In this document: positions 3,081 through 58,715 of the stretch, piece after piece
Numbering within the stretch: position 1 is the stretch's first letter
Layout of the letters: every line of letters starts with the position of its first letter
Origin: Parapedobacter koreensis
GTDB lineage: Bacteria > Bacteroidota > Bacteroidia > Sphingobacteriales > Sphingobacteriaceae
Direction of reading: 5' to 3'
Length of the DNA: 64,000 nt
NCBI RefSeq assembly: GCF_900109365.1
Contig: NZ_FNZR01000003.1
Location: 620,001 to 684,000, forward strand
Translations under genes and position numbers: made by a program
Notes under the pieces: model-generated
The model's input: the letters and a program-made list of their open reading frames with translations, nothing else
The model's database searches: none
Told to the model about the DNA's origin: nothing

Positions 3081-4574
<1,494 letters not shown>

Positions 4575-34561: not shown

Positions 34562-34565
34562 GGTG

Positions 34566-34573: not shown

Positions 34574-34664
34574 AGCAACAAAAGTAAAATTTTTTGAAAT
34601 GTTTTCATGGGCTATTCGTCTATAAGAGGGAGGGATGATATAACGGGTTAACGACGTTGAAAAA

Positions 34665-42410: not shown

Positions 42411-43580
42411 ATGAAAGACATCACTTATGTTACCATTGGACTTTGCACTTGGCTGTCGGCCGTAGTAGGGATAGCCCAAAGTCAGGAGTTGGATAATGGC
42501 CGATTAGTTGAGCTTTATCAGAACCAGCAGTATCATGAGGCCGCCGAGTACCTCCGGAGTTTTTATCCAGACACCATAGCCGAACCTACAATACTGAGCC
42601 GCCTGGGCTACAGTTACCGCATGGCGGGTGACTACGGCAAGGCCACATTATATTATATGCGCCTGTATGACCAGGACAGCTCGAACGTTTCCACACTGTT
42701 GAATTTGGCTGCTATCAACATCCAACGGGGTCAATATCCGGCTGCAATAAACTATTACCAGCGTATCGTTGCGATAGATAGCAACCGCGCGGATGTATAC
42801 GATGCCCTTTCTGGACTGATGCGAAGGCGTGGGGATTTGGAAATAGCGTATGGGTATCTGAAAAGGGCAAACCACATACAACCAACAAATAGCGATATTG
42901 CTTATGACTTTGCCCGACTGTGTATGGATCTGGAGCGCTACACCGAGGCGGACACCGTTTTGCAACTAGCATTGGCTGCTGATCCCCAGCATGGCATGCT
43001 GTTGCTCGGAAAATTGCAAGTAGCTGATAAACTGAAACAATATCCGGAGATGGTGGCGTTGGGGGAGCGCCTGGTGGAATTGGCCGATGAAAGCCAGCAG
43101 GTACTGGCCTTGCTGGCCAAGGGGTATTTCCATACGGACGATTTTATTAAATGCGAGCAAACTTACGAACGGCTGCTGGAACTTCATGGTCGGATGGGCG
43201 AGATTGATTATTACTACCTTGCCATGGCTTATAAGGCAACGAAGCAATATGAGGAAGCGCTGGAATCTATGGACAAGGTGCTGGAATTAGCGATTTCGCC
43301 CAACACTGCCTTTTATTATGGGCGCAAGGCCGATTTGCATGACTTGGCCAACCAACCGTCGGCCTCGGCTTCAAATTACCTGCGCAGTTTCCAATTTGAA
43401 GTGATACCCATGCACTATTACAGCCTTGCCGTGTTGTATGATCGCAAGCTCAGCGATACACGCAATGCCCTGCGGTATTACCGTCTATACCTCAAACAGA
43501 ATCCTCCCCGGGAAGAAAGTCGGTATGTAGACTATGTAACGCAACGGATTGAAGAATTAGTACAGAAAAATACACGATAG
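42411..43580 (+). CDS. Exported tetratricopeptide-repeat protein
   Basis: A 389-residue protein with an N-terminal signal-like segment (MKDITYVTIGLCTWLSAVVGIAQSQ) and about eight TPR units across residues 30-370. Examples are SRLGYSYRMAGDYGKATLYYMRLY and NLAAINIQRGQYPAAINYYQRIVAID. It is probably periplasmic and serves as a scaffold. It stands immediately upstream of the molybdenum operon, but a separate promoter follows it. Confidence 0.85.
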   Translation: MKDITYVTIGLCTWLSAVVGIAQSQELDNGRLVELYQNQQYHEAAEYLRSFYPDTIAEPTILSRLGYSYRMAGDYGKATLYYMRLYDQDSSNVSTLLNLAAINIQRGQYPAAINYYQRIVAIDSNRADVYDALSGLMRRRGDLEIAYGYLKRANHIQPTNSDIAYDFARLCMDLERYTEADTVLQLALAADPQHGMLLLGKLQVADKLKQYPEMVALGERLVELADESQQVLALLAKGYFHTDDFIKCEQTYERLLELHGRMGEIDYYYLAMAYKATKQYEEALESMDKVLELAISPNTAFYYGRKADLHDLANQPSASASNYLRSFQFEVIPMHYYSLAVLYDRKLSDTRNALRYYRLYLKQNPPREESRYVDYVTQRIEELVQKNTR

Positions 43581-43670
43581 CCCTATGTTAAAAGCAATTA
43601 AACAACTTACCGCCAATCAAGGCAATGCAGGTTGAGGCGCAATCCCAAGCGTAACAATAAAGTCACCGGT

Positions 43671-43701
43671 TTGCATAAATTCTCCGTTACTGTTATATTT
43701 G
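43671..43701 (+). promoter_or_regulatory. Promoter of the molybdenum-cofactor operon
   Basis: TTG at 43671-43673 and TATATTTG at 43694-43701 (20-base spacing) match the Bacteroidota promoter. The first gene of the operon starts at 43749, leaving a leader of about 45 bases. No other promoter-like element of this quality was noticed before 57 kb. Confidence 0.6.
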
Positions 43702-43748
43702 ATACCATGTATCAATAGGGAAAAGGTCTCACGTTTAAACTCCTGATT

Positions 43749-44195
43749 ATGAAACTTCACATAAATGGCCATGTTTATGACATTGATGTGCCGGAGACTA
43801 CCAGTTTATTGGACACACTGCGGATTTACCTGAAACTCACGGGCAGCAAATATGGTTGTGGGGAAGGTGTCTGCGGTGCCTGCCGGGTGCTCGTTGATGG
43901 GCATGCCACACCATCGTGTATCACACCGGTCGCCAGTGTGCAGCATAAGGAAGTGGTTACCATTGAAGGGTTGGCGAAAGACGGTCGGCTTCATCCCATA
44001 CAACAGGCGTTTTTGGACGAAGACGCCTTTCAATGTGCTTATTGTACATCGGGCATGGTCATTTCTGCGGTTGCACTGAAAAATAGAAACCCAAGACCAA
44101 GTCGGCAAGAAATTATTGACGCCATGCAAGTCAATATCTGCCGATGCTGTGCCTACCCGCGTATCATGAAAGCGATAAGTAACGCACAATCTTAA
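43749..44195 (+). CDS. (2Fe-2S)-binding subunit of a molybdenum hydroxylase
   Basis: A 148-residue protein carrying two [2Fe-2S] clusters. The plant-ferredoxin type is bound by YGCGEGVCGACRVLVDG plus a later cysteine (TPSC). The second has AFQCAYCTSG and NICRCCAYPR. It matches the CoxS/XdhC-A/IorA family small subunit and passes electrons from the Mo site. It begins the operon and its Mo partner follows 12 bases downstream. No FAD subunit is present. Confidence 0.94.
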   Translation: MKLHINGHVYDIDVPETTSLLDTLRIYLKLTGSKYGCGEGVCGACRVLVDGHATPSCITPVASVQHKEVVTIEGLAKDGRLHPIQQAFLDEDAFQCAYCTSGMVISAVALKNRNPRPSRQEIIDAMQVNICRCCAYPRIMKAISNAQS

Positions 44196-44207
44196 TAAAA
44201 TAAGGCC

Positions 44208-46316
44208 ATGGACAAATCGACCACAGCAACATTGGAAAATACGGCTACCATCACCAGACGGAATTTTTTCAGGTTGCTTGGCGGTGGCGTCGCCGTTGTG
44301 GTGTCCCAGTCATGCATATACGGTTGGGCAGATTCGCCTGCTGTTGGAAAGGATTTGACGGTTGACGACGATTCGATCGCAGCTTGGATTCACATCCATG
44401 AAGACGGAAAAGTATCGGTATTTACCGGTAAAGTAGAGGTCGGACAGAATATCCGGACGTCGTTGGCGCAGGTGGTAGCCGAGGAGCTTTTCGTGTCCAT
44501 ACAGCGCATCACCATGATAATGGGAGATACATTGATGACCCCGTACGATGCGGGCACGTTTGGGAGCCGTAGCATACCTTATATGGGGCCGCAGTTGCGG
44601 AAGGCAGCGGCTTCTCTCCGAAAAGCATTGTTGGAGAAAGCTGCGAAGGCGTTAAAGGTGCCTGTGGAATCCCTTCGGACCGAAGCAGGGGAGATTGTCC
44701 ACGATGCGTCAAACAGCACGTTGCCATACGGTTCTCTTACCCGTGGTGAGAAGCTATTGCTTCCCATAGACGAAGAGGTGGCCCTAATCGCTGCCGATAG
44801 CTGGACGGTGGCCGGTACGTCGGTGCCTAAAGTAAACGGGCATGATTTCGTCACGGGCAAACACCAGTATACGTCGGACATGGCATTGCCCGATATGGTC
44901 TACGGAAAAATACTCCGTGCCCCGGCCTACGGAATGACGTTGGTTGCTGCCGATATCGAAAAAGCAAGGACTATTCCTGGTGTGACCGTTGTGGAAGCGG
45001 GCGATTTCATTGGCGTAGTCGCGCCCGATCCACAAATGGCAACCAATGCGCTGGCCGCGATATCGGTACAGTGGGATGCATCCCCGCAACCGTCGAAGGC
45101 GGATATTTTTTCCTACTTGAAGGAAAATGCCCAGCAGGGCAGGGAAGATGACGGTACACAGCGGGAGACCCGCCGCGTGTTTGATGCATCGGAAAACCGT
45201 TTGGAACACCGAGTGGAAGTCCAATATATCGCGCATGTCCCCTTGGAGCCGCGAGCGGCGGTTGCCCAATGGGATGGCAGCCAGCTGACCGTATGGACGG
45301 GCACTCAACGGCCTTTCGGTGTGCAAGAGGAACTCGCCGGGGCATTTTCCGTGGCTAAAGAACAGGTGCGGGTGATCATGCCCGATACAGGGTCGGCCTA
45401 TGGGGGCAAGCACAGCGGTGAAGCAGCTGTAGAGGCTGCGCGGCTGGCTAAAGCGGTAGGCAAAGCGGTGAAAGTCGTATGGACGCGCGAAGAAGAATTT
45501 AAGTGGGCGTACTTCCGGCCTGCAGGGCTTATTGAAGTCGCCGCAGCGTTGGATAGCGACGGTTCGATCGCCTCTTGGGAGTTTCATAATTACAATTCGG
45601 GCAATGCAGGTATCGACTTCCCTTACCGGGCGAGGACGAAGCACATCCAATATCATCCTTCCCGGACACCGCTGAAGCAGGGGTCGTACCGGGGGCTTGC
45701 TGCTACGGCTAACGTATTTGCCATCGAATGCATGATGGACGACTTAGCGAGGCAACTGCGGGTTGATCCCTTGGATTTCCGATTGCGCCAATTGACAGAC
45801 GAACGTATGCAGGCCGTATTGGAAACTGCGGCAGAGCGGTTTGGCTGGAAAGAAGCGAAGGCGGCCGGGCATGGATTCGGCATTGCCTGTGGTTTCGTAA
45901 AGAATTCCTATATCGCCACTTGCGCAGAAGTGGCCTATGACCGCTCGGATGAACAACTGCATGTAATCCGGTTGGTGGCTGCCTATGATTGCGGGGCAAT
46001 TGTCAACCCCAAACATTTAGAGAATCAGGTGCTTGGCGCCATTTTGCAAGGGCTTGGTGGCGCATTATTCGAAGAAATCGACTTCCGGGATGGCCGTATC
46101 TTGAATCCCACGTTATCCAGCTACCGGGTACCCCGCTTTTCTGATATTCCGCCACTGGACATTGTATTAATAGGTAGAAAAGATGTCCCTTCGGCTGGAG
46201 CCGGTGAAACGCCGATTGTAGGTACTGCTCCCGCTATACGTAATGCGATTGCTGATGCGACGGGTATCAAGTTGCATAAACTGCCCATGATTCCTCAAGG
46301 ATTAAAAAACAACTAA
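44208..46316 (+). CDS. Molybdopterin-binding subunit of a xanthine dehydrogenase-family enzyme
   Basis: A 702-residue Mo hydroxylase large subunit. A Tat-like signal (TRRNFFRLLGGGVAVVVSQSC) indicates export. The aldehyde oxidase/xanthine dehydrogenase a/b hammerhead domain (about 215-330, VNGHDFVTGKHQYTSDMALPDM) precedes the Mo-binding domain. The catalytic Glu lies in GAGETPIVGTAPAIRNAI near residue 675. It should hydroxylate an aldehyde or N-heterocycle with electrons passing to the adjacent 2Fe-2S subunit. The substrate is unknown. It precedes a second, distinct pair. Confidence 0.93.
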   Translation: MDKSTTATLENTATITRRNFFRLLGGGVAVVVSQSCIYGWADSPAVGKDLTVDDDSIAAWIHIHEDGKVSVFTGKVEVGQNIRTSLAQVVAEELFVSIQRITMIMGDTLMTPYDAGTFGSRSIPYMGPQLRKAAASLRKALLEKAAKALKVPVESLRTEAGEIVHDASNSTLPYGSLTRGEKLLLPIDEEVALIAADSWTVAGTSVPKVNGHDFVTGKHQYTSDMALPDMVYGKILRAPAYGMTLVAADIEKARTIPGVTVVEAGDFIGVVAPDPQMATNALAAISVQWDASPQPSKADIFSYLKENAQQGREDDGTQRETRRVFDASENRLEHRVEVQYIAHVPLEPRAAVAQWDGSQLTVWTGTQRPFGVQEELAGAFSVAKEQVRVIMPDTGSAYGGKHSGEAAVEAARLAKAVGKAVKVVWTREEEFKWAYFRPAGLIEVAAALDSDGSIASWEFHNYNSGNAGIDFPYRARTKHIQYHPSRTPLKQGSYRGLAATANVFAIECMMDDLARQLRVDPLDFRLRQLTDERMQAVLETAAERFGWKEAKAAGHGFGIACGFVKNSYIATCAEVAYDRSDEQLHVIRLVAAYDCGAIVNPKHLENQVLGAILQGLGGALFEEIDFRDGRILNPTLSSYRVPRFSDIPPLDIVLIGRKDVPSAGAGETPIVGTAPAIRNAIADATGIKLHKLPMIPQGLKNN

Positions 46317-46330
46317 CTAACTAAATAATT

Positions 46331-46786
46331 ATGGCAACATTAAAGCTAACCGTCAACAGAAAGGAATACGAGGTAGATGCTGACCCACAGATGCCGTTGC
46401 TGTGGGTACTTCGTGATTTCATTGGCCTCACGGGCACAAAGTTTGGATGCGGCATTGCCCAGTGCGGCGCATGTACTGTACATGTAGGAGACGCTGCGGT
46501 GCGGTCGTGCTCCATTCCGGTGGAAAGTGTCGTCAACCAGCCCATCACCACGATCGAAGGGCTTTCCGACGATGGCAGCCACCCCGTACAGCAGGCATGG
46601 GAGACGATCGATGTACCTCAATGCGGCTATTGCCAGGCGGGACAAATCATGACAGCTGTGGCACTCCTAAAACAAAATCCGAATCCAACGGATGAAGATA
46701 TCAATGCGTCCATGACCAACATTTGCCGTTGCGGTACATACAACCGCATCAAAAAAGCCATTAGGCTGGCTGCCGAAGAGGTTTAG
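46331..46786 (+). CDS. (2Fe-2S)-binding subunit, IorA-like (second pair)
   Basis: A 151-residue two-cluster ferredoxin-type subunit. It has [18 protein letters not shown] plus SC for the first cluster, and [22 protein letters not shown] with [11 protein letters not shown] for the second. It fits the alpha subunit of isoquinoline 1-oxidoreductase-type enzymes. It follows the first large subunit by 14 bases and precedes its own large subunit by 56 bases. Confidence 0.95.
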
Positions 46787-46842
46787 CGAGTAGGCTGATT
46801 GCCGTGCAATTAGTGGATTGACAATTTTAAAAAAGCAAAATA

Positions 46843-48975
46843 ATGAACACGCAACAACATACCGTAAGCAGAAGGGATTTTATCCGCATCAGCGCTTTCG
46901 CCGGGGGAGGTCTCGTATTGGGCTTCAACCTTTTTTCTTCGTGCAGCCCGCAACAAGGAGAAGGCGTGATATATGATCTGAATGCATTTGTTAAAATAGA
47001 TACCAATGGAGCAATCACCCTGATGAATCCCAATCCGGAAATCGGGCAGGGAGTAAAGACTGCCTTGCCCATGCTGGTAGCCGAAGAGCTCGACGTGGAT
47101 TGGAAGGCTGTGAAGGTGGAACAGGCTGGATTGGATACTGAAAAATATAGACGCCAAATTGCTGGAGGCAGTGGCTCCATCCGCGACAGTTGGGAGTCTT
47201 TCCGCAAAGCGGGCGCTACCGCGCGGCAGATGCTCATCAATGCGGCGGCAGCCACGTGGGGTGTGGCACCGGAAAGCTGCACGACGGAAAAGGGACAAGT
47301 AGTGCATGCTGATTCGGGCAAGAAACTTGGCTATGGCAAACTGGTTGAACAGGCCGCGACTATGGAAGTTCCGGCTGACGCAGCCGTGAAATCCATTACG
47401 TCTTTTGCCATTATTGGCCAATGGATCCCGAATGTAGACAACCGGGCCATTGTGACGGGGCAATACAAATACGGTATAGATACCAAGCGTGAGGGAATGA
47501 AGTATGCTGCCCTCGTGCGCCCTCCTGCCTTTGGCCAGACATTAAAATCTTATGACGACACCGAAGCGATGCAACAGCAGGGCGTTGAAAAAGTACTCCG
47601 TATCGATAACAAAATTGCCGTATTGGGCCGATCGACCTGGGAAGTGATGCAGGGAGCAAAAAAAATTAAGGCCGAATGGGAAGATGGCCCTACTATGGAA
47701 AGCACAGCCGATTACCTACGCAATTTCCGTGAAACCGTGGCGAAGCGTCCCGCAGGTAATCCGCAACGCAAGGATGGCGACGTACAACGGGCATATCAAA
47801 GTGGCGGGACCAAGGTTTTCGAGGCAGTATATGAAGCTCCTTTCTTGGCACACAATACCATGGAGCCGATGAACTTTTTTGCCGACGTACGTGCCGATGG
47901 AGTGGAGCTCTATGGCCCGATACAGACACCGGAACGCACACGGACCACGGTAGCAAAGCTCGTGGATATGCCGGAAGAAAAGGTAACAGTGATGATGACC
48001 CGCATGGGCGGCGGCTTCGGGCGGCGCCTCATGTCTGATTTTGTTGAAGAAGCGACATTGGTTTCCAAGGCGGCGGGAGTGCCTGTAAACTTAATCTGGT
48101 CTCGCGAAGATGATATGGGCGGCGGCTATTACCGGCCAATGTGTACTTACCGGTATAAGGCAGCGGTGGATGCCGACGGACGGCTTACGGCATGGCAACA
48201 TCAATCCGTTGGCACGACGGGCAGTCCCGCACGGGCGGGCAGTTTCCCCGCAGGCGCCGTACCCAATTTGCAGGTAGATGCGCAGGAATACAAAACACCG
48301 GTGACCACCGCTCCGTGGCGCGGGCCTATCCACAATTTTATTGCCTTTTCCGAACAATCATTTTTTGATGAAGTTGCCCACGCCGTCGGAAAAGATCCGG
48401 TAGCTTTCCGGTTGGAAGTACTCGATCAAGCGAAGCAGCAACCCACAGGCGAATTGGAATACGATCCCGATCGCTTTGCTGGCGTTATTAAGAAAGCTGC
48501 GGAGATGGCCGGATGGGGTGCATCCAAAGGTCCGAACATTTTCCAGGGCATCGCGGCCCAATATTCGTTCAACTCCTACGTCGCGCAGGTAGCCGAGGTG
48601 GAGAAGCGCGACGATGGGAAACTGAAAATCAAGAAAATTTATTGTGCGGTCGACTGTGGGATTGTGGTCAATAAAAGTGGTGCCGAAAATGTCGTGGAAG
48701 GCGGTATCATCGATGGCATCGGCCATGCGATGTACCCCGAATTGACCCTCACGCGAGGTAAGCCGGATCAGGTGAATTTCAATACCTACCGCATGATTCG
48801 TATGGCGGAAGTGCCCGAGATTGACATCCAATTTATCGAAAATGATATTGCCCCCACCGGATTGGGTGAGCCAGGGCTACCGCCTGCGGGTCCTGCGGTG
48901 GCCAACGCGGCATTTGCCGCTACGGGCGTACGGTTGCGGACACAGCCCTTTATCAAGAGTGGACTATTTGCCTAA
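46843..48975 (+). CDS. Isoquinoline 1-oxidoreductase beta subunit-like (IorB), second Mo hydroxylase
   Basis: A 710-residue Mo-binding subunit with a Tat-like signal ending in a lipobox-like cysteine (VSRRDFIRISAFAGGGLVLGFNLFSSC). Domain order is IorB-like: an N-terminal Mo-binding part (NGAITLMNPNPEIGQGVKTALPMLVAEELDVDW), hammerhead insert, and C-terminal catalytic region with GLGEPGLPPAGPAVANAAF holding the active Glu. It is clearly different from the first large subunit. The exported Cys may be lipid-modified. IorAB enzymes oxidise N-heterocycles or aldehydes; the substrate here is unassigned. Confidence 0.94.
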   Translation: MNTQQHTVSRRDFIRISAFAGGGLVLGFNLFSSCSPQQGEGVIYDLNAFVKIDTNGAITLMNPNPEIGQGVKTALPMLVAEELDVDWKAVKVEQAGLDTEKYRRQIAGGSGSIRDSWESFRKAGATARQMLINAAAATWGVAPESCTTEKGQVVHADSGKKLGYGKLVEQAATMEVPADAAVKSITSFAIIGQWIPNVDNRAIVTGQYKYGIDTKREGMKYAALVRPPAFGQTLKSYDDTEAMQQQGVEKVLRIDNKIAVLGRSTWEVMQGAKKIKAEWEDGPTMESTADYLRNFRETVAKRPAGNPQRKDGDVQRAYQSGGTKVFEAVYEAPFLAHNTMEPMNFFADVRADGVELYGPIQTPERTRTTVAKLVDMPEEKVTVMMTRMGGGFGRRLMSDFVEEATLVSKAAGVPVNLIWSREDDMGGGYYRPMCTYRYKAAVDADGRLTAWQHQSVGTTGSPARAGSFPAGAVPNLQVDAQEYKTPVTTAPWRGPIHNFIAFSEQSFFDEVAHAVGKDPVAFRLEVLDQAKQQPTGELEYDPDRFAGVIKKAAEMAGWGASKGPNIFQGIAAQYSFNSYVAQVAEVEKRDDGKLKIKKIYCAVDCGIVVNKSGAENVVEGGIIDGIGHAMYPELTLTRGKPDQVNFNTYRMIRMAEVPEIDIQFIENDIAPTGLGEPGLPPAGPAVANAAFAATGVRLRTQPFIKSGLFA

Positions 48976-48976
48976 A

Positions 48977-50134
48977 ATGAAGCGACAGCCCATCTATTTA
49001 GATTATAACGCGACAACCCCATGCGATCCTCGGGTGGTGAATGCTATGCTGCCCTATTTTACTCAGCAATACGGCAATGCTGCGAGCGCCGATCATGGCT
49101 ATGGCTGGTACGCCCGGGAAGCGGTGGAAGACGCACGCGAGCAGGTGGCCCGGCTGGTGGGTGCCCGTGCCAATCAGGTGGTCTTTACCTCGGGCGCTAC
49201 CGAATCCATCAACTTGGCACTGAAGGGGATTGCCGAAGCAAGGGCAGGACAAGGCAAGCATATCATTACCTGCAAGACGGAGCATAAAGCGGTGCTGGAT
49301 ACTTGTGCTTATTTAGAAAGACGGGGCTACCGGGTAACTTATCTCGATGTTGATAGACAAGGCAGACTTTTATTGGAAGCTTTGGAGCCCTCAATTGGTG
49401 AGGACACCATCTGCATTGCGCTGATGTATGCCAACAATGAAACCGGGGTCATTCATCCGGTCAGGGCTATTGGTGCCATCGCCCGGAATCATGGAATACC
49501 TTTTCTTTGTGATGCTACGCAAGCTGTCGGCAAGATACCTGTGCATGTAGCAGCTGATGCCATTGATCTCTTAGCTTGCTCAGCACATAAGCTGTATGGT
49601 CCAAAAGGTGTTGGAGCGCTTGTGATCCATGACCCGAAGTTGCGAGCCACCTTATCGCCTCAGCAGCACGGAGGCAACCATGAAGGAGGACTGCGGAGCG
49701 GTACATTAAATACAGCCGGTATCGTTGGATTTGGGAAAGCTGCGGAACTGTGTTATAGCCAGATGGCGACAGATGCGGAACGGATGGAACAATTCCGGGA
49801 CAGACTGGAGCATGATGTGCTGAAGAATATCCCGGACGTCATCATCAATGGGAAGATTGAGCGGTTGCCCCACGTGAGCAATTTGCTCTTGCCCCACGGC
49901 AATGCCGAACACGTGTTGCTGGCCTTGTCGCCGTATCTCGCGCTAAGCCGTGGTAGTGCCTGTTCTGGACTCGTGCAACGACCGTCGCACGTGTTGAAAG
50001 CGATGGGGTTGGACGATGCGGAGGCCGATCGCACCATCCGTATCAGCTTAGGGCGGTTTACGCATTCGGAAGAAATAGACGAAGTGGTGGATCGGCTCAC
50101 GCAGGTTGTTTTAGCGACAGTGTTGGCCAATTAA
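48977..50134 (+). CDS. Cysteine desulfurase of the molybdenum operon
   Basis: A 385-residue NifS-like PLP enzyme. YLDYNATTPCDPRVVNAML opens the chain, the PLP lysine lies in SAHKLYGPKGVGAL and the persulfide cysteine in LSRGSACSGLVQRPSHVL. Start ATG 48977 is one base after the preceding stop. Its place between the Mo hydroxylases and XdhC suggests it supplies the sulfido ligand of the Mo site, as in Moco sulfuration; this is inferred from context. It is distinct from the desulfurase at 33.4-34.6 kb. Confidence 0.92.
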   Translation: MKRQPIYLDYNATTPCDPRVVNAMLPYFTQQYGNAASADHGYGWYAREAVEDAREQVARLVGARANQVVFTSGATESINLALKGIAEARAGQGKHIITCKTEHKAVLDTCAYLERRGYRVTYLDVDRQGRLLLEALEPSIGEDTICIALMYANNETGVIHPVRAIGAIARNHGIPFLCDATQAVGKIPVHVAADAIDLLACSAHKLYGPKGVGALVIHDPKLRATLSPQQHGGNHEGGLRSGTLNTAGIVGFGKAAELCYSQMATDAERMEQFRDRLEHDVLKNIPDVIINGKIERLPHVSNLLLPHGNAEHVLLALSPYLALSRGSACSGLVQRPSHVLKAMGLDDAEADRTIRISLGRFTHSEEIDEVVDRLTQVVLATVLAN

Positions 50135-50154
50135 GTTGGAATACCGGTAGTTAG

Positions 50155-51909
50155 ATGAAGGAAATCAAGCAAATTATTGCGGCATATGAAAGTGCCCATT
50201 TGCAACGGCAGCGATCGGCACTGGCCACCGTTGTGCACATCGATGGCTCTTCTTATCGAAGTCCAGGCGCGCGTATGTTGATTACGGAAGACGGCAGGCT
50301 CACCGGAGCGATTAGTGGCGGTTGCCTCGAAGGGGATGCCCTGCGTAAAGCCCTACTGGTCATGATGGAGGGTACCCCCATGCTGGTCACTTATGACACG
50401 TCGGAAGAAGGCGGTTCGGTGCTGGGCATTGGGCTTGGCTGCAACGGTATCATCCGTGTATTGATAGAACCTATAGCTGACGACATGGAAGAAACACCTA
50501 TTTCGTTGTTGAAACGTATCGTGGGAAAGCGTGATCCATCGATATTGGTGACGTTTTTCACCCCTGGCAATAAAAAGAGCAGTGCTCAGGGTACTTATAT
50601 TGCTGTGGTTGCAGGACACGCTCATACAACGGACGCTGCACTTCCCATCCCTTATGAGCATATAAATCAGGATATTCAGCGCGTAATGGTGGGGCAGCAT
50701 ACCGCTTTCATCGCCTATGAATCGGTACATGAGGAAGGGGGTATAATCGCCTGCATAGCCTATGTAGCCCCTGCGCCTGCTTTAATTGTGGCCGGAGCAG
50801 GCAACGATGTGTTGCCATTGGCACAACTGGCAGCATTGCTGGGGTGGGACATTACCTTGATTGACGGTCGGCCAGCCTATGCCACTGCCGGACGTTTTCC
50901 CGACTGCCAGGTGATCATATCGGAACCCGATGCCGCCTTGAAACAAGTGGTCATTGATGACCGGACGGCCATCGTCTTGATGTCGCACAACTATGCTTAC
51001 GACAAAGCCATGTTGAAAGCCGTGCTCGGCAGCCGTGCACGTTATATTGGCATATTGGGCCCCATAGCAAAACGCCAGCGGATGCTGCAGGAGTTAACAG
51101 AAGAAAGCACCGCTATTCCGCATACGGGCTACGCATCGATCTACGGCCCTGTCGGTCTGGATATCGGTGCGGAGACGTCCGAAGAAATTGCGTTGGCTAT
51201 CATGGCGGAGATACAGGCCGTCTTCGCCGGGCGACACGGCGGCCACCTGCGGGGTTTAACCGGCAAGATACACCAGCGGCAGACGCTCATTACGCCTTCC
51301 TTACACGCATATGGCATCCTGCTACTGGCCGCCGGCGAGTCAAAACGAATGGGTACACCCAAGCAGCAGTTGCCCTATCAAGGGCGTACATTATTGCAAC
51401 ATGCTGTCCAAGCAGCATTGGGTGTGGGGACTGAACATACGGTGGTGGTGTTGGGGGCAGCAGCAGCAACAATGGCACAGCAGCTGGAAGGCGCTGACGT
51501 AACTATCGTTGCGAATGGTGATTATGCATCGGGTATGGCGACCTCCATTGTAAGTGGCTTAACGCATATTATGATGCATCACCCAAATGTATCCTACCTG
51601 CTTGTCATGTTATGCGACCAACCGCATGTCAATACCGCGCACCTACAGGCGCTGATTCATAAGCAGCAGTTGACGGGAGCATCGGTTACTGCCAGCTACT
51701 ATGCTGGAAGAAAGGGGGTGCCTGCACTTTTTCATCGGTCGGTCTTTTCCAAATTACTGACCTTGACAGGCGATACCGGGGCAAAACATGTGATAGAAAG
51801 CTTTGGGGATGAAGTCGCTACTGTGGCATTCCCCCAAGGGGCGGTAGACGTGGATACCCGTGAGGCCTATCAACAAACTGTTAGCGGAAATATTGTTAAC
51901 TTGCGCTGA
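50155..51909 (+). CDS. XdhC-MocA fusion: Mo cofactor sulfuration chaperone and cytidylyltransferase
   Basis: A 584-residue fusion. Residues 1-360 form an XdhC protein: an N-terminal CoxI domain (AISGGCLEGDALRKALL) and a Rossmann domain (LIVAGAGNDVLPLAQLAALLGWDITLIDGRPAYAT, about 206-240). Residues about 385-584 form a MocA/MobA nucleotidyltransferase, with ILLLAAGESKRMGTPKQQLPYQG and MLCDQPHVN. XdhC inserts the sulfido ligand and protects the cofactor, and MocA adds CMP to give molybdopterin cytosine dinucleotide. The domains are usually separate. It follows the desulfurase by 20 bases. Confidence 0.93.
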   Translation: MKEIKQIIAAYESAHLQRQRSALATVVHIDGSSYRSPGARMLITEDGRLTGAISGGCLEGDALRKALLVMMEGTPMLVTYDTSEEGGSVLGIGLGCNGIIRVLIEPIADDMEETPISLLKRIVGKRDPSILVTFFTPGNKKSSAQGTYIAVVAGHAHTTDAALPIPYEHINQDIQRVMVGQHTAFIAYESVHEEGGIIACIAYVAPAPALIVAGAGNDVLPLAQLAALLGWDITLIDGRPAYATAGRFPDCQVIISEPDAALKQVVIDDRTAIVLMSHNYAYDKAMLKAVLGSRARYIGILGPIAKRQRMLQELTEESTAIPHTGYASIYGPVGLDIGAETSEEIALAIMAEIQAVFAGRHGGHLRGLTGKIHQRQTLITPSLHAYGILLLAAGESKRMGTPKQQLPYQGRTLLQHAVQAALGVGTEHTVVVLGAAAATMAQQLEGADVTIVANGDYASGMATSIVSGLTHIMMHHPNVSYLLVMLCDQPHVNTAHLQALIHKQQLTGASVTASYYAGRKGVPALFHRSVFSKLLTLTGDTGAKHVIESFGDEVATVAFPQGAVDVDTREAYQQTVSGNIVNLR

Positions 51910-51911
51910 TC

Positions 51912-52895
51912 ATGATGCTGGATACTTACCATAGAAAACATACTTACCTGCGCATTTCGCTTACCGATGTGTGTAATCTCCGATGTTTCTATTGTATGCC
52001 GGATGAAAGCTACGATTTCATGCCCATGAAGCATCTGATGCAACCACCTGAGATCGAAATGATTGCCAAGGTATTTGTTGAGCTTGGTGTGACCAAAATC
52101 CGTCTTACAGGAGGCGAGCCCTTGGCCCGGCGGGATTTTGATGATATCGTGTTGCGGCTTTCCGCATTGCCCGTGGAGCTGACGCTGACCACCAATGCTA
52201 CCTTGCTGCATCAGCACGTTGGCGCATTGCAACTGGCCGGTATACGCAACCTCAATATCAGTCTGGATACACTTTCTCCAGAACGATTTCAGCAGCTTAC
52301 CCGTAGGGATAAATTTAGTCTTACCATGCGCAATATCCGGATGGCTATCGATCGCGGATTTCAGGTAAAAATCAACATGGTGGTGATGAAGGGGGTTAAT
52401 GTCGATGAAGTGCTTGACTTCGTGGCATGGACGAAGGACGAGCCTATCGATGTGCGGTTCATCGAATTTATGCCATTTGCGGGCAATCGGTGGACAGGCG
52501 AGCAAGTGTTTGCCAAGCAGGATATCATGGATCTGATCACCGCGCGATATGCCGCTATTCCGTTACACCAAGATCCACATGCGACGAGCCAACCTTATGC
52601 AATACCGGGCCATCGGGGTACGTTCGCGGTCATTAGTACGATGAGTGCTCCCTTCTGTGCCGGTTGTAACCGCATGCGGCTCACGGCCGATGGCAAGATG
52701 AAAAACTGCCTGTTTTCGAAGACCGAAAGCGACTTACTTTCGGCAGTGCGTGGCGGTAAGCCACTTGAGCACCTTATCAGGGAAAATATTTTAGGAAAAG
52801 CGGAGAAGCTCGGCGGACAGTTCGGGGATGTGCCTTTTGAGAATATCATTGGCGATCAGCTTGTGAATCGGAGTATGATCAGTATTGGGGGATAA
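51912..52895 (+). CDS. moaA: GTP 3',8-cyclase, molybdenum cofactor synthesis protein A
   Basis: A 327-residue radical SAM enzyme that with MoaC turns GTP into cyclic pyranopterin monophosphate. The radical SAM motif is VCNLRCFYCMP (CxxxCxxC) near residue 21. The second iron-sulfur motif is CAGCNRMRLTADGKMKNCLFS near the C-terminus. TGGEPLARRDFDDIV is the expected SAM-binding block. It starts 2 bases after the XdhC-MocA stop; a second ATG is one codon later. Confidence 0.96.
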   Translation: MMLDTYHRKHTYLRISLTDVCNLRCFYCMPDESYDFMPMKHLMQPPEIEMIAKVFVELGVTKIRLTGGEPLARRDFDDIVLRLSALPVELTLTTNATLLHQHVGALQLAGIRNLNISLDTLSPERFQQLTRRDKFSLTMRNIRMAIDRGFQVKINMVVMKGVNVDEVLDFVAWTKDEPIDVRFIEFMPFAGNRWTGEQVFAKQDIMDLITARYAAIPLHQDPHATSQPYAIPGHRGTFAVISTMSAPFCAGCNRMRLTADGKMKNCLFSKTESDLLSAVRGGKPLEHLIRENILGKAEKLGGQFGDVPFENIIGDQLVNRSMISIGG

Positions 52896-52908
52896 TAGTT
52901 TAATCGAC

Positions 52909-53421
52909 ATGCGATTGATATCAAAATTTCTAATGGCCACAGCGGTTGTCATCACCGGGATGTCGGTCGCTTCAGCCCAAGATGCTAAACCCGCCATGGA
53001 AATCAGCGGGAATGTAGCGGCTCCTTTGCAACTTACGGCGACGGATCTGCAAGGAATGGTTCGCAGTTCGGTCAGCATCCCCAATAGAAGCGGCGATGGT
53101 ATACGGCGTTATGAGGGTGTAGCCCTATGGCGACTCCTCGACAGTGTAGGTGTTTCTACTGAAAAACTGAATGCCAAAGACATTGCCAAACGCTATTTAA
53201 CGGTACGGGGGGCTGATGGGTTCGAGGTGGTTTTTTCGTTGGCTGAATTAGGCCGTGCATATGCAGAAGACGAAGTGATACTGGCAGACCGGATGGATGG
53301 GCAACCGTTGCCAGCGAGCCGCGGGTCTTTCCAAATCATTGTGCCGGGGGATTTGCGACCGACCCGCAACTGCTATCAGGTAATTGCGCTGACGGTACAC
53401 GAAACAAACAAGGGCCAATAA
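52909..53421 (+). CDS. Small exported sulfite-oxidase-fold protein without the Mo cysteine
   Basis: A 170-residue protein with a signal peptide (MRLISKFLMATAVVITGMSVASAQ). The mature domain resembles the molybdopterin-binding core of the sulfite oxidase/YedY family (GIRRYEGVALWRLLDSVGV and QIIVPGDLRPTRNCYQVIALTV). The segment where the family carries its Mo-ligating cysteine (V-x-C-A-G-N) shows no cysteine. It may bind or shuttle pterin, or interact with the oxidoreductases. It lies between moaA and moeA, with its stop overlapping the moeA start by one base. Confidence 0.8.
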   Translation: MRLISKFLMATAVVITGMSVASAQDAKPAMEISGNVAAPLQLTATDLQGMVRSSVSIPNRSGDGIRRYEGVALWRLLDSVGVSTEKLNAKDIAKRYLTVRGADGFEVVFSLAELGRAYAEDEVILADRMDGQPLPASRGSFQIIVPGDLRPTRNCYQVIALTVHETNKGQ

Positions 53422-54641
53422 TGTCAAACGGGAAATATCAAAGCAGTCAAATCATTTCAGTTGCCGAAGCTAAGGCTATTTTGAATGCGCAAGCTTTCGA
53501 GCGGAAGACCGTTCGCAAAAGCTTGCCGGAGGCGGTGGGTCAGGTGTTGGCAGAAGATGTCTGTGCTCAAGTGGATGTTCCGGCCTTTGATCAATCATCG
53601 ATGGACGGCTATGCATTCACGTTTGCCGATTGGAAGCCCGGCGTTACACTGGCTGTTGTCGGCAAGATCCCCGCCGGAGCAAGTGGCCAACTGGCCGTAG
53701 GAATGGGGGAGGCCGCGCGTATTTTCACGGGGGCGCCACTGCCGGAAGGCACGGACACGGTGGTCATGCAAGAACGGACTGAGGAGATTAGCGGTCAACT
53801 GCGTATCGATCAGGTAGATTTGAAGCAAGGCGATCACACACGGACACGTGGCGCTGAAATTAATAGGGGGGAAGTCGCGTTGGTGCAGGGTATGCCCCTT
53901 ACCGCTGCGGCAATCGGTTTCCTTGCCGGCGTGGGGTGTGATCAGGTGGTTGTCTATGCACTACCGACGGTGGCATTGGTCATCACCGGTGACGAACTAC
54001 AGCAACCCGGGAAACCACTATTGCACGGTGAGGTGTATGAAGCTTCTTCATCCATGCTACGGGCAGCGCTGGCTCAGATGGGCATTGCTGACGTACAGGT
54101 CTATTATGCGGAAGATACGTTGGAAGGAACCATCAAAGTGCTGGACACAGCATTGCAAGTTTCGGATGTGGTGCTGCTTACCGGAGGTGTCAGCGTAGGT
54201 GAATATGATTTTGTAGTGCAGGCTGCAAGCCGCTGTGGCGTGCAACAACTGTTCCACCGCGTGAGACAACGGCCCGGAAAGCCGCTTTATGCAGGGCGAA
54301 AAGCTAATCAGCCGATATTCGGATTGCCTGGCAACCCATCTTCCGTATTGACCTGTTTCTACCAGTATGTATGGCCCCAGCTGCGTAAGCTTACTGGACA
54401 TAATGACACACTCACTGCTTTGCGGGTGCCTTTGGCGGCGGCATATGATAAACACAACCAGCTCACTCATTTTTTGAAGGGGGTATACCGGGATGGTTAT
54501 GCCACGATTCTCCCTGCTCAGGAGTCCTATCGTATGCGTACCTTTGCCGTTGCCAATTGCCTCGTGGTACTCGATGAAGCTATGCGCCATTATGATGCGA
54601 ACGAATTAGTTGATATTCATTTATTGCCCAGCTATGGATAG
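53421..54641 (+). CDS. moeA: Molybdopterin molybdenumtransferase
   Basis: A 406-residue enzyme that inserts molybdate into adenylylated molybdopterin. It has the N-terminal VPAFDQSSMDGYAF, the MoeA substrate loop RIFTGAPLPEGTDTVVMQE, the central MogA-like domain LVITGDELQQPG and LTGGVSVGEYDFV, and FGLPGNPSSVLTCFYQYV. Full length for the family. It overlaps the gene before it by one base and the exporter gene after it by 8 bases, so translation is coupled. Confidence 0.96.
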   Translation: MSNGKYQSSQIISVAEAKAILNAQAFERKTVRKSLPEAVGQVLAEDVCAQVDVPAFDQSSMDGYAFTFADWKPGVTLAVVGKIPAGASGQLAVGMGEAARIFTGAPLPEGTDTVVMQERTEEISGQLRIDQVDLKQGDHTRTRGAEINRGEVALVQGMPLTAAAIGFLAGVGCDQVVVYALPTVALVITGDELQQPGKPLLHGEVYEASSSMLRAALAQMGIADVQVYYAEDTLEGTIKVLDTALQVSDVVLLTGGVSVGEYDFVVQAASRCGVQQLFHRVRQRPGKPLYAGRKANQPIFGLPGNPSSVLTCFYQYVWPQLRKLTGHNDTLTALRVPLAAAYDKHNQLTHFLKGVYRDGYATILPAQESYRMRTFAVANCLVVLDEAMRHYDANELVDIHLLPSYG

Positions 54642-55374
54642 TGTACTTTGGTTTTATGTATTGCTGTTTGCCGTAGCGTTCTTGTATTCATCGGTTGGCC
54701 ATGGCGGGGCCAGCGGTTATTTGGCGCTGATGGCACTGTTTGGCGTCACACCGGATGTCATGAAGCCCACGGCGCTGCTGCTCAACCTGTTTGTTTCGCT
54801 GACGTCGTTTACTTTTTATTACCGTGGGCATTACTTCAATCGTAAACTGTTCGTTCCGCTGGCGGTAGCCTCGGTACCCATGGCGTTTGTAGGAGGGATG
54901 ATGGCTATCCAATCAGATATTTATAAAAGGATGCTGGGGATTTTCTTGCTAATACCCGTTATTCGCTTTCTGTTTTTCAGTGATATTCAGGTCAATCGGA
55001 CGATAAATCCTAAGACCGGGTGGTTGTTGTTCATCGGTGCTGCGATTGGTCTGCTCTCAGGAATGCTGGGTATCGGTGGTGGCGTCATCCTATCGCCTGT
55101 GTTGCTATTGCTGGCATGGACAGACCAGAAACAAGCAGCGGCCATCAGCGCACTGTTCATTTTTGTCAATTCCCTATCTGGCTTGGTGGGCCAACTTACC
55201 CAAGGTATCCAATTCAGCACGGATATGGTCGCCTATGTGGTCGTTGCCTTTTCCGGAGGACTATTAGGATCTTATTTTGGTGCTATGCGTTTTCCGCAGC
55301 GGACCATCAAATTTTTGCTGGCCGGGGTGCTGGCTGTGGCTTCATTTAAATTATTTTTGCCGAACATATGGTGA
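54634..55374 (+). CDS. TauE/SafE family membrane exporter
   Basis: A 246-residue polytopic protein with about 8 hydrophobic helices. It has SSVGHGGASGYLALMALFGV, KPTALLLNLFVS, and the second repeat GLLSGMLGIGGGVILSPVLLLLAW. TauE/SafE members move sulfite, sulfoacetate or other organosulfur anions. Here it is tightly embedded in the Mo operon (8-base overlap with moeA, 7 with moaD). A role in handling sulfur oxyanions or molybdate is plausible but not shown. Confidence 0.87.
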   Translation: MDSVLWFYVLLFAVAFLYSSVGHGGASGYLALMALFGVTPDVMKPTALLLNLFVSLTSFTFYYRGHYFNRKLFVPLAVASVPMAFVGGMMAIQSDIYKRMLGIFLLIPVIRFLFFSDIQVNRTINPKTGWLLFIGAAIGLLSGMLGIGGGVILSPVLLLLAWTDQKQAAAISALFIFVNSLSGLVGQLTQGIQFSTDMVAYVVVAFSGGLLGSYFGAMRFPQRTIKFLLAGVLAVASFKLFLPNIW

Positions 55375-55610
55375 ATGGCACATTATCGCTGCAATTTTTT
55401 GGACGGCTGATGGATCTCACAGGCTGTTCAACGGTTTCCGTGCCTATGGTAGGCGACACGGACGAGCTCCGCCAGAGGCTCTTTGAGCAGTATCCTGCAC
55501 TTCGGGAGGCCACGTATGTGGTAGCGGTCGACCGGAAAATTGTCCGCCAAAATACGCCGCTTACCGAGGCGGCTGAAATTGCTTTATTGCCACCCTTTTC
55601 GGGGGGATAA
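55368..55610 (+). CDS. moaD: Molybdopterin synthase sulfur carrier subunit
   Basis: An 80-residue beta-grasp protein ending in FSGG, with the C-terminal Gly-Gly that is adenylylated and thiocarboxylated before donating sulfur to cyclic pyranopterin monophosphate. LPPFSGG is the expected end of the family. No MoeB activator is in the window, so activation must come from elsewhere in the genome. Confidence 0.94.
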   Translation: MVNGTLSLQFFGRLMDLTGCSTVSVPMVGDTDELRQRLFEQYPALREATYVVAVDRKIVRQNTPLTEAAEIALLPPFSGG

Positions 55611-55621
55611 GTTAACATCAC

Positions 55622-56062
55622 ATGGAAACAACAATGCAGACGATTTTCATTCAGGGCGCTATTTCGACGACCATGGTCGCCCAAAGCATCCAACGATATG
55701 CTACGGATATGGCCATCGGTGCACATTCTTGTTTTATTGGTCAGGTACGGGCGGACCTTGTTGAAGGGAAGGAAGTGGTTGCCATAGAATATACGGCATA
55801 TCAGGCCATGGCTGATGAGCAACTGCAAATCCTGGCTGCCGACATTTATAAGCGTTATACACTGAATGGAATCATCGTGAAGCATAGCTTGGGCATGGTA
55901 GCAGCGGGCGAAATTTGCCTCCTAGTGCTTGCGGTTGCCGGACATCGCCGGGCCGCCATGGACGCTTGTGGTGAACTTGTAGATCGGATAAAAAACGAAC
56001 TGCCTATTTGGGGCAAGGAATATTTTGCTGGAGACGGATACCAATGGAAGATCAATCAATGA
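55622..56062 (+). CDS. moaE: Molybdopterin synthase catalytic subunit
   Basis: A 146-residue protein that with MoaD inserts the dithiolene sulfurs. Family features include GAHSCFIGQVRADLVEGKEVVAIEYTAYQAMADEQ, IIVKHSLGMVAAGEICLLVLAVAGHRRAAMDACGELVDRIKNELPIWGKE. The strongly conserved Lys of the KxxxxxWGKE region is present. Start ATG 55622 (or the second ATG at 55634) follows moaD by 11 bases. Confidence 0.95.
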   Translation: METTMQTIFIQGAISTTMVAQSIQRYATDMAIGAHSCFIGQVRADLVEGKEVVAIEYTAYQAMADEQLQILAADIYKRYTLNGIIVKHSLGMVAAGEICLLVLAVAGHRRAAMDACGELVDRIKNELPIWGKEYFAGDGYQWKINQ

Positions 56063-56063
56063 C

Positions 56064-56972
56064 ATGGTAGACATTACACATAAAACGGTGACCCTCCGCC
56101 AGGCCGTTGCATTGGCATCGGTAGAAGCTTCAAGTGAGGAAACGATACAGGCGATAGTAGCGCGAAGGGTACCAAAGGGTGACGTATTTGAATTTTCGCG
56201 GGCGGCGGGTCTATTAGCCATCAAGAAGACCAGTGATGTGGTTCCCGATTGCCATCCATTGCCCATTGAATATGCAGCCATCACCTATGGCGTGGAAGGC
56301 CTGCGTATCAATATCCGTGTCGAAGTGCAGACGATTTACAAGACAGGAGTGGAAGTGGAAGCCATGCATGGTGCAATGATTGCAGCACTTACCCTCTATG
56401 ATATGCTCAAGCCTATTGATAAGCATTTGGAAATCAATTCAGTGAAGCTTGAAAGCAAAAAAGGAGGCAAGTCGGATAATAAGCCTACGGTGGTACCCGG
56501 TTTTAAATGTGCGGTGGTGGTCTGTTCGGATCGTGTTTCGGCGGGTATTCAGGCAGATGTATCAGGGAGGTTATTGGTCGATATGCTGGAGCAGCGGGGG
56601 ATAAACCCCAACGAATTTACCATTGTGCCGGACGAGGTCGCTAAAATTCAGGAAAAGGCAAAAGCCCTGCATGGGCAGGGATATGATTTGGTGCTTTTCA
56701 GTGGGGGGACAGGGCTATCCATTCGTGATGTCACTCCTGAAGCTATTAAGCCTTTGCTTGATCAAGAGATACTCGGCGTGATGGAGGCGGCGCGGGCGTA
56801 CGGCCAGCAGCGTACACCAATGGCCATGCTATCCCGGGGAGTGGCCGGATTCATGGGAAACACCTTGATCATAACATTACCCGGTTCTCCGAACGGCGTG
56901 CGAGAAACGATGGATGTCCTATTTCCGGCAATCCTGCATGTGTTCAACATACGGGGTGGAGCGGGGCACTAA
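56064..56972 (+). CDS. MoaC-MogA/MoaB fusion, molybdopterin biosynthesis
   Basis: A 302-residue bifunctional protein. The first part (1-155) is MoaC, with VSxA-like VTLRQAVALASVEASSEETIQAI, KTSDVVPDCHPLPI and VEAMHGAMIAALTLYDMLK. The second (about 162-302) is MogA/MoaB, with AVVVCSDRVSAGIQADVSGRLL, LFSGGTGLSIRDVTPEAI and ITLPGSPNGVRE. Together they provide cyclic pyranopterin formation and adenylylation of molybdopterin. ATG 56064 is one base after the moaE stop, ending the 13-gene operon. Confidence 0.94.
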   Translation: MVDITHKTVTLRQAVALASVEASSEETIQAIVARRVPKGDVFEFSRAAGLLAIKKTSDVVPDCHPLPIEYAAITYGVEGLRINIRVEVQTIYKTGVEVEAMHGAMIAALTLYDMLKPIDKHLEINSVKLESKKGGKSDNKPTVVPGFKCAVVVCSDRVSAGIQADVSGRLLVDMLEQRGINPNEFTIVPDEVAKIQEKAKALHGQGYDLVLFSGGTGLSIRDVTPEAIKPLLDQEILGVMEAARAYGQQRTPMAMLSRGVAGFMGNTLIITLPGSPNGVRETMDVLFPAILHVFNIRGGAGH

Positions 56973-56991
56973 AATATCTCACCATTCCTTG

Positions 56992-57021
56992 TTGCGATAT
57001 AAGGAAAAACTTTTATTTTTG
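56992..57021 (+). promoter_or_regulatory. Promoter of tRNA-Ser
   Basis: TTG at 56992-56994 and TATTTTTG at 57014-57021 are separated by 19 bases, exactly the Bacteroidota consensus spacing. The tRNA begins 21 bases downstream. Confidence 0.75.
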
Positions 57022-57041
57022 CAGCCCCAATAGCATAGCAC

Positions 57042-57132
57042 GGAGAGGTGTCAGAGTGGTCGAACGAGCACGCCTGGAAAGTGTGTATACGTGTTGAGCG
57101 TATCGAGGGTTCGAATCCCTCCCTCTCCGCCA
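57042..57132 (+). tRNA. tRNA-Ser (anticodon GGA)
   Basis: The acceptor arms GGAGAGG (57042-57048) and CCTCTCC (57122-57128) pair fully, with discriminator G at 57129 and an encoded CCA at 57130-57132. The anticodon loop reads CTGGAAA with GGA. A long variable arm (ending GAGCGTATCGAG region) marks it as class II, and the T-loop has GGTTCGAATCC. It reads UCC and UCU codons. Confidence 0.96.
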
Positions 57133-57144
57133 CCCAAAATGAAG

Positions 57145-57172
57145 CCCGACGGAAGTCGGGTTTTGTTGTTTT
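57145..57172 (+). terminator. Intrinsic terminator after tRNA-Ser
   Basis: CCCGAC (57145-57150) and GTCGGG (57155-57160) form a stem with a GGAA tetraloop, followed by TTTTGTTGTTTTT. Confidence 0.85.
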
Positions 57173-57327
57173 TAAGGCATGCCAACGAGACCAGAGTTAA
57201 TCATCAGCCTGCTCATTGTTGGCGCCCGGAGGGGTTGTAAACGGCATATACAGCACCTCCCGGTTTCCACAATGGCCTGCAGGCGATCATTAACTTCCGC
57301 ATTATGCTTTTAGCACTTTTTGTTTGC

Positions 57328-57690
57328 TTATTTTGACCAAACAGCAAGTTCATAGCCGTCCAAATCTGTGAATTGAAAGCGTTTCCCTCCGGGAAAATTG
57401 AAGGTATCTTTTACAATAGTACCTCCAGCGCTTATCACTTTATCTTTGCTCGCTTCAATATCTTCTGAATAGAGAATGACTAAGATACTTCCATTAATCG
57501 GTTCCCCATAGGTAAAGCCTCCATCAACATAGTCGCCTTCAAATGCAGTGTATTCTTGTCCATAATCTGTAAACTTCCAACTAAAACATTTCGCATAAAA
57601 ATCCTTGGCTCGGACAATGTCCTTTGAAAGAAATTCAATGTATTGCACTTGTTCATGTTTTAGCTTTTTTTGCTGGTCAATTGTAGCCAT
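57328..57690 (-). CDS. VOC (glyoxalase/dioxygenase-fold) family protein
   Basis: A 120-residue protein of the vicinal-oxygen-chelate fold. It has VQYIEFLSKDIVRAKDFYAKCFSWKFTDYG in the first half and the closing FTDLDGYELAVWSK, as in 4-oxalocrotonate/lactoylglutathione-like small enzymes. Metal residues in this subgroup vary, so an enzymatic role is not certain. It is divergent from nothing and lies beside an AraC regulator gene; TAAATTTG on the minus strand at 57717-57710 is a likely promoter. Confidence 0.83.
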   Translation of the reverse strand: MATIDQQKKLKHEQVQYIEFLSKDIVRAKDFYAKCFSWKFTDYGQEYTAFEGDYVDGGFTYGEPINGSILVILYSEDIEASKDKVISAGGTIVKDTFNFPGGKRFQFTDLDGYELAVWSK

Positions 57691-57709
57691 GATATCATTT
57701 ATTTTTTTA

Positions 57710-57717
57710 CAAATTTA
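57710..57717 (-). promoter_or_regulatory. -7 element (TAAATTTG) of the VOC gene
   Basis: TAAATTTG on the minus strand lies 19 bases before the ATG at 57690. Confidence 0.5.
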
Positions 57718-57758
57718 CAGGTCTACCATCAATCCGACTTTGGAAAAATGCGACAAAA

Positions 57759-58496: not shown

Positions 58497-58715
58497 TGCT
58501 TTTCTTTAGTCAGTTGTTTTCTGCAAGAAACGATACTGGTCGCTTGCAGAACAAAAATACGTATTTAATTCAGTGCTGCCTAAACGTTTTCCGCCGATTT
58601 AGGAGCGCTGTTGGGCAGATAAAATAATGAAGTAACGGTATTAACAAAAAATCGGCTAAAAGGAATGGCAGTAAAAGAGTAAATTTAACCACGAATAGCC
58701 ATAAAAATAGATCGT

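Follow-up and report, generated by a model that had tools for sequence, protein, structure and literature searches.

A TSUP-family membrane protein as a candidate molybdate importer in a molybdenum cofactor operon of Parapedobacter koreensis

The TSUP gene and the closest described systems

Among the closest described systems, the ModABC importer has the genomic role proposed for the gene studied here, a TSUP/TauE-family membrane protein gene located in a 13-gene molybdenum operon of Parapedobacter koreensis (43749–56972, forward strand). The DNA analysed, here called the window, is a stretch of 64,000 nucleotides from a 5.55-Mb genome (27 contigs, 99.99% complete). Like ModABC, the TSUP protein would usually be the one molybdenum importer of a molybdenum-using genome, and ModABC, like TSUP, is found next to moa genes or, in loci L132 and L133, next to a ModE-type gene. 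Unlike ModABC, it has neither an ATPase nor a binding protein but consists of one membrane protein with 10 helices (two short), and it belongs to a family unrelated to that of the molybdate transporter MOT1 (PF16983). The sections consulted of a 2018 survey count 278 molybdenum-using bacteria without a known molybdenum transporter and suggest that further uptake systems may exist (PMC6147048). For many Bacteroidota, the TSUP subtype described below offers a candidate for the molybdate importer so far not recognised, one that is specific, widespread and easy to test.

The TSUP gene (54634–55374, forward strand) sits between moeA and moaD. Its product matches PF01925 over residues 8–239 of 245 (117 bits against a gathering cut-off of 32.6; E 1.4e-33) and shares with the TSUP/TauE-SafE family a two-half organization with a glycine-rich turn in both halves. 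The first-half turn of the moa-linked subtype reads G-[HFM]-G-G-[AG]-[ST]-[GS]-Y, as opposed to G-G-G-G-S-I-L-T-x-P in the two paralogues seen. A profile built from 22 moa-linked TSUPs (A1) gave at least 155 bits for the subtype and 25 and 46 bits for the two paralogues. In the underlying alignment, residues H23, S27, N51, R111 and K166 (numbering of the TSUP protein) do not vary. No ModA was matched in the P. koreensis genome at E ≤ 0.001, and ModB and ModC, sought in the operon and not genome-wide, were absent from it. The preliminary description of this DNA had concluded that a molybdenum transporter is absent; this is probably wrong, as ModA is indeed absent but the TSUP gene of the operon is the best candidate importer.

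The steps of molybdenum cofactor (Moco) synthesis are well established for the families encoded here. In the account that we propose, molybdate would enter through the TSUP carrier, a Bacteroidota subtype acting in place of ModABC. MoaA, MoaC, MoaD, MoaE and MogA would yield adenylated molybdopterin, MoeA would insert the metal, MocA would add CMP, and XdhC with a cysteine desulfurase would carry out the sulfuration; the gene set points to the molybdopterin cytosine dinucleotide form of the cofactor. Two two-subunit enzymes of the xanthine-oxidase family would then be loaded with it and exported through the Tat pathway as folded pairs, and an exported PruR-like protein would serve as a periplasmic accessory of molybdenum uptake or sensing. 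We place the probability of this whole account at about 0.83. It is very probable that the operon TSUP is a molybdate importer replacing ModABC, with both its substrate and the direction of transport predicted; this step is proposed because of comparative genome evidence, namely the exclusion of ModA and the presence of ModE-type neighbours.

The new part is the transporter inference; nothing about the operon as such is unusual for the phylum. We found no proposal of a TSUP molybdate transporter in the open literature searched, which leaves out most subscription papers and preprints, so that priority is not certain; the consulted portions of PMC5840216, PMC3445992 and PMC11582611 contain none. 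If the proposal is true, the label 'sulfite exporter TauE/SafE' is a misnomer in moa clusters, PF01925 gains a role in metal nutrition, and the small PruR-like proteins gain a function-linked setting.

Distribution of the TSUP subtype and of ModA

To compare the window with the genomes of its family, 68 MoaA stretches of family members were fetched, and a TSUP gene was present inside most of the moa clusters. The sample comprised 65 genomes with a full-length MoaA (>250 bits). Radical-SAM matches weaker than this did not qualify as MoaA. G102 and G112, genomes with MoaA fragments only and no ModA match, in which TSUP was not looked for, are not among the 65. ModA was counted only over its cut-off, and matches below it were taken as absence (this applies to 10 family genomes, seven of them with TSUP). 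Under these rules, 39 genomes had only a TSUP gene in the moa cluster, 23 had only ModA, one had both and two had neither (Fisher p 3e-14). In G058 the TSUP gene lies in a neighbouring stretch (L151) together with moeB, moaD, moaE and moeA. The genes modB and modC adjoin modA in 24 of 24 ModA-bearing family genomes, with modC in two pieces in L134.

The same pattern was observed in a sample of 198 genomes of the phylum, which has four MoaA-bearing genomes in common with the family sample. Calling the subtype at E ≤ 1e-25 with profile A1 and ModA at E ≤ 1e-15, we found MoaA in 116 genomes and the TSUP subtype in 36, all 36 of which carry MoaA and 35 of which lack ModA. Within the class Bacteroidia, the 36 genomes with MoaA divided into 27 with TSUP, seven with ModA, none with both and two with neither; for the 32 that lie outside the family of the window the figures were 25, five, none and two. 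Outside the class, TSUP alone was present in eight MoaA-bearing genomes, ModA alone in 50, both in one and neither in 21.

The two Bacteroidia with neither gene, G191 and G281, carry a gene of MOT1 type at a distance of about 5 kb from moaA (the bacterial MOT1-type genes near moaA lie at 3338–4627 in L167 and at 3778–4956 in L180; that of G191 matches PF16983 with E 4e-57, 192 bits). Thus each of the 36 MoaA-bearing Bacteroidia has one recognised or proposed molybdenum importer. No MOT1-type gene was found in any other locus among L055–L279, the genome-wide search for MOT1 being restricted to the family. As the transporter of the window itself MOT1 was rejected: the P. koreensis genome gave three partial PF16983 matches of 22–33 bits (best 32.7) in frames of 529–556 aa, and comparable weak matches, scoring at most 38 bits and probably due to SulP proteins, occur in 107 of 121 genomes, including genomes that lack MoaA.

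We also compared TSUP and ModA on a tree of 98 MoaA loci, which excludes the cut locus L108 and, for G119, G015 and G082, the second moaA copy. Over this tree ModA switches state at least 16 times. Across 11 independent pairs that differ in ModA and are separated by well-supported branches, TSUP differed in the opposite direction in 10.5 and in the same direction in none (median p 0.001), the counts being averages over random pairings, with G037 entered once per moa cluster. Removing G037 gave the same result, and scoring it as having both gave 12 pairs, 10.0 of them opposed (p 0.002). Related genomes repeat this exchange at close range. In one genus the labelled genes of the ModA-bearing L191 follow the order seen in L160, L161, L179 and L181 except that tsup alone is missing, and in another genus the ModA-bearing L058 differs from L056 in just this way.

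A scan of a species collection extended the subtype to named relatives. Among the best 80 of at least 589 matches are Chitinophaga, Pedobacter, Chryseobacterium, Flavobacterium, Winogradskyella, Emticicia and other genera, and at least two Moco genes are present in the fetched stretch for 71 of these 80. ModA over its cut-off was absent from 48 of the 49 genomes of these relatives that were searched. The fetched loci hold duplicates (e.g., L066/L205, L056/L230, L108/L125 and L129/L159), which makes locus counts slightly high.

Finally, the 141 loci with a moa-type TSUP were inspected for ModE-type genes, and 17 hold one. In 14 of these the ModE-type gene precedes tsup by no more than 100 bp on the same strand, and in two Emticicia loci (L270 and L272) it lies on the opposite strand 61–64 bp away. 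A TonB-receptor-like gene is near in these two loci (Pfam-confirmed in L272), which showed no moa genes. Eight of the 17 proteins (L249, L254, L261, L262, L179, L277, L270 and L272) matched TIGR00637 with E values from 4e-15 to 2e-27, all under its cut-off; the remaining nine calls rest on similarity to L270 and L272.

Opposing evidence and alternative readings

Taken together, the subtype is confined to genomes with Moco synthesis, where it would take the place of other molybdenum importers, with G037, G294 and G316 as exceptions. These exceptions are among several observations that weigh against molybdate import by TSUP. G037 has two moa clusters, one with TSUP and one with ModA; G294 is the phylum-sample genome with both the subtype and ModA; and G316, Pedobacter sp. 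Leaf216, carries the subtype and is the ModA-bearing exception among the 49 relatives. Two family genomes, G004 and G041, have no ModA and showed no TSUP gene near their moa genes, and 21 MoaA-bearing genomes outside the class have neither gene. Sub-cut-off ModA matches (31–50 bits, in frames of about 307–316 aa) occur in seven of the 39 TSUP-only family genomes (G013, G050, G063, G081, G094, G096 and G113), and five further genomes of the 49 have only such matches; they were also seen in three genomes without a full-length MoaA (G064, G083 and G105). As to scope, TSUP was sought in the family sample only in the stretches fetched around moaA, phylum scoring took at most 10 and at most 14 candidates per genome in two passes, and the importer searches left out TupA and WtpA. 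As to regulation, the checked ModE-type proteins are 110–126 aa long, the length of the DNA-binding part of ModE alone, and may not bind molybdate; no ModE was found in the P. koreensis genome at E ≤ 1e-8; and no Moco riboswitch exceeded the gathering score in the window. A Foldseek search of the PDB with the TSUP model gave no match at E ≤ 0.001. Known TSUP members are tied to sulfur oxyanions and sulfonates in the parts of PMC5840216 consulted, and molybdate resembles these compounds, which weighs on the specificity of the carrier.

Two further structural searches were made: profile A1 matched no PDB sequence at E ≤ 0.1, and the best fold match of the TSUP model in VIA was BacA/UppP (Z 7.8, root-mean-square deviation 5.2 over 229 residues), a likeness of the model that may reflect just a common arrangement. 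As a separate observation on Pedobacter sp. Leaf216, the moeA and mocA frames beside its tsup are split in L206, perhaps through decay of the cluster or assembly errors.

The sulfur chemistry of the family leads to the alternative that the substrate of TSUP is not molybdate but a sulfur compound (sulfate, sulfite or thiosulfate) tied to cofactor sulfuration or to the cysteine desulfurase. The TauE/SafE annotation, the literature just cited and the presence of the desulfurase and XdhC genes in the same operon speak for it. It leaves unexplained, however, the exclusion of ModA, the substitution by MOT1 and the modE-tsup gene pairs. Moreover, the subtype is also present in the moa clusters of L102–L109, whose fetched stretches showed no desulfurase or XdhC gene and which have a nearby PF00384 gene (about 1170–1200 aa) that probably encodes a nitrate reductase. 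We consider a sulfur substrate unlikely.

A second alternative is that the exclusion is a by-product of the inheritance of ancestral moa cluster types, with molybdate entering by TupABC, WtpABC or SulP. The omission of TupA and WtpA from the searches leaves room for this, as do the weak and widespread PF16983 matches (at most 38 bits, probably SulP), which are also present in genomes lacking MoaA. We judge the exclusion to be more than mere ancestry because of the ~11 phylogenetically independent swaps of TSUP against ModA and because of the within-genus pairs (L191/L160 and L058/L056), whose labelled genes are otherwise equal; we hold this alternative to be quite improbable.

Sequence cannot give the direction of transport and the TauE/SafE names imply export, so TSUP might instead export molybdate or tungstate against excess, or carry oxyanions in general with low affinity. 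A genome with such an exporter should also have an importer, but the TSUP genomes lack ModA (48 of 49 relatives; 35 of 36 in the phylum sample), and we regard this reading as very unlikely. The original view of an operon without a transporter, with molybdenum supplied non-specifically, agrees with the lack of ModA in the genome but runs against all the comparative evidence on TSUP, and we give it very little credence.

The operon, the PruR-like protein and flanking features

The candidate importer lies in a block filled by 13 open reading frames (ORFs) on the same strand (ORF list; some starts were refined by hand). In order, the genes are separated by gaps of 12, 14, 56, 1, 20, 2 and 13 bases, overlaps of 1, 8 and 7 bases, and gaps of 11 and 1 bases, in concordance with the preliminary description, which had reported 13 same-strand genes with no gap above 56 bases and with several overlaps, here counted as three. 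The arrangement is compatible with a single transcription unit, in which the genes would be co-transcribed. Pfam and NCBIfam profiles, used for all family calls on the 13 products, bore out the pathway genes and the two enzyme pairs that had been listed; two genes were outside that list, the TSUP gene and the PruR-like gene.

The first four genes encode the enzymes: [2Fe-2S] subunit 1 (43749–44195; PF01799, 1.2e-29), large subunit 1 of the xanthine-oxidase family (44208–46316; PF20256 and PF02738; Tat motif TRRNFF, GAGE motif at 664), [2Fe-2S] subunit 2 (46331–46786; PF01799, 2.4e-28) and large subunit 2 (46843–48975; PF20256 and PF02738; Tat motif SRRDFI, GLGE motif at 673). The nearest solved chain to large subunit 1 is 8gy3_C, the large chain of an aldehyde dehydrogenase; by comparison with 8gy3 and other xanthine-oxidase-family enzymes, the operon has no FAD or cytochrome subunit. 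An IscS/NifS-type cysteine desulfurase follows (48977–50134; PF00266, 2e-80; the NCBIfam IscS/NifS models were under cut-off). A second cysteine-desulfurase-like gene was noticed by eye in the window, away from the operon (33425–34693, reverse strand).

Two of the 13 products are fusions. The first joins an XdhC sulfuration chaperone to a MocA cytidylyltransferase (50155–51909; PF02625, PF13478 and PF12804); against the MocA equivalog TIGR03310 it scored 127.8 bits, under the cut-off of 186.45, and the MobA model scored well below this, at 40.2 bits. The second is MoaC-MogA (MoaCB; 56064–56972), identified with Pfam and with the equivalog NF002947, which it matched with 387.7 bits over a cut-off of 285. 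The remaining genes encode MoaA (51912–52895; TIGR02666, 333 bits, above cut-off), the PruR-like protein (52909–53421), MoeA (53421–54641; PF03453, PF00994 and PF03454), MoaD with a C-terminal GG (55368–55610; PF02597, 7e-13) and MoaE (55622–56062; PF02391, 5.7e-26).

Both known molybdenum enzymes of the genome sit in this block with the cofactor genes. The whole genome has one full-length MoaA by profile search, so no second MoaA was found that could serve the two enzymes, the possibility raised when a search for moa genes elsewhere was suggested; this genome-wide search covered MoaA but not MoeA, MoaC, MoaD or MoaE. The only large subunits of the xanthine-oxidase family are those of the operon (four stretches, corresponding to two genes), the only PF00174 protein is the operon's own, and no convincing DMSO-reductase-family enzyme was found genome-wide, a weak 1004-aa match of this type being present also in relatives without MoaA.

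MoeB had been described as absent, and this holds for the operon: in many related clusters moeB lies between moaD and moaE, and it is missing at this position in the window (55610–55622) and in L092 and L093, the congener clusters most similar to that of the window, and is present in congeners with other cluster types (L070 and L081). An E1-like ThiF/MoeB-rhodanese protein, however, is encoded elsewhere in the genome, adjoining thiH, and could charge the Gly-Gly-ended MoaD. The block is therefore a compact Moco-synthesis unit with two Tat-motif hydroxylases, as had been proposed, but not a fully self-contained module.

Comparison with relatives suggests that the long operon is of an ordinary kind for the phylum, built of modules that are separable and variably arranged. 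The congener G028 (L092) keeps the order with all operon genes except the PF00174 one, and in the congener G087 the enzyme and biosynthesis halves are about 290 kb apart (L123 and L093), so the two halves are separable. Among annotated loci the XdhC-MocA fusion is found only in the window, two congeners (L092 and L123) and Chitinophaga skermanii (L200); in the remaining ones XdhC and MocA are two genes.

PruR is a periplasmic pterin-binding protein. In the portions consulted of PMC13259868 it is described as a secreted protein of about 170 aa with a sulfite oxidase (SUOX) fold and no molybdenum-ligating cysteine, and small proteins of this kind are said to be often annotated as molybdopterin-dependent oxidoreductases. 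The protein of the window is likewise about 170 aa long, with an N-terminal signal (read by eye), a SUOX fold (PF00174, 1.7e-8) and no such ligand: an alignment of 30 sequences has no conserved cysteine, while D103, E113 and R153 are invariant. The closest structures to its model (pLDDT 88.4) are those of PruR (7kom, E 7e-9; 7rkb, with neopterin), followed by sulfite dehydrogenases. A role as a molybdenum enzyme was rejected on the lack of a conserved cysteine ligand and on a signal that looks Sec-like rather than Tat-like by eye.

PruR has been described in Proteobacteria beside DcpA-type regulators, whereas the Bacteroidota protein lies beside molybdenum transporters or ModE-type genes; no DcpA/DTB regulator is present among the 13 operon genes. 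Among 56 PruR-like ORFs in the fetched loci, tsup is no more than 300 bp away for 31 (in 30 loci), and modA no more than 2.5 kb away for 14; that of the window, separated from tsup by moeA, is one of the remaining 11. These positions indicate that the PruR-like gene tends to follow a molybdenum transporter of either kind, and a role of its product in molybdenum uptake or sensing is suggested. In L128 (8325–12400), L129 (4448–8597; L159 holds the same gene) and L130 (6001–10093) a PruR-like gene is clustered with genes for a ModE-type protein, a CCP_MauG di-haem protein and a TonB receptor (Pfam for L130 only), a possible molybdenum-regulated outer-membrane system. More tentatively, and less likely than not, many Bacteroidota may have a molybdenum route unlike any described. 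It would be made of TSUP as a secondary carrier in the inner membrane and of the PruR-like protein in the periplasm, handling molybdate or a pterin signal of molybdenum demand; some species would add a TonB receptor linked to ModE, together with a di-haem MauG-like protein, to bring molybdenum across the outer membrane, perhaps as a chelate.

Lastly, we examined the two ends of the operon. One good promoter had been reported ahead of it, and by eye a Bacteroidetes-type motif does precede the first gene, with TTTG at 43670–43673 and TATATTTG at 43694–43701 (forward strand). A sigma-70 scan of 42500–58500 gave 18 sites against 19.5 expected, no better than chance, the 43670–43701 site being among them. 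In all, 24 terminator-like sites were found against 17.0 expected, several weak ones falling within the operon on the forward strand. A tRNA-Ser(GGA) gene lies 3' of the operon (57042–57132, forward strand), and the terminator-like hairpin with the most pairs (13) follows it at 57138–57167.

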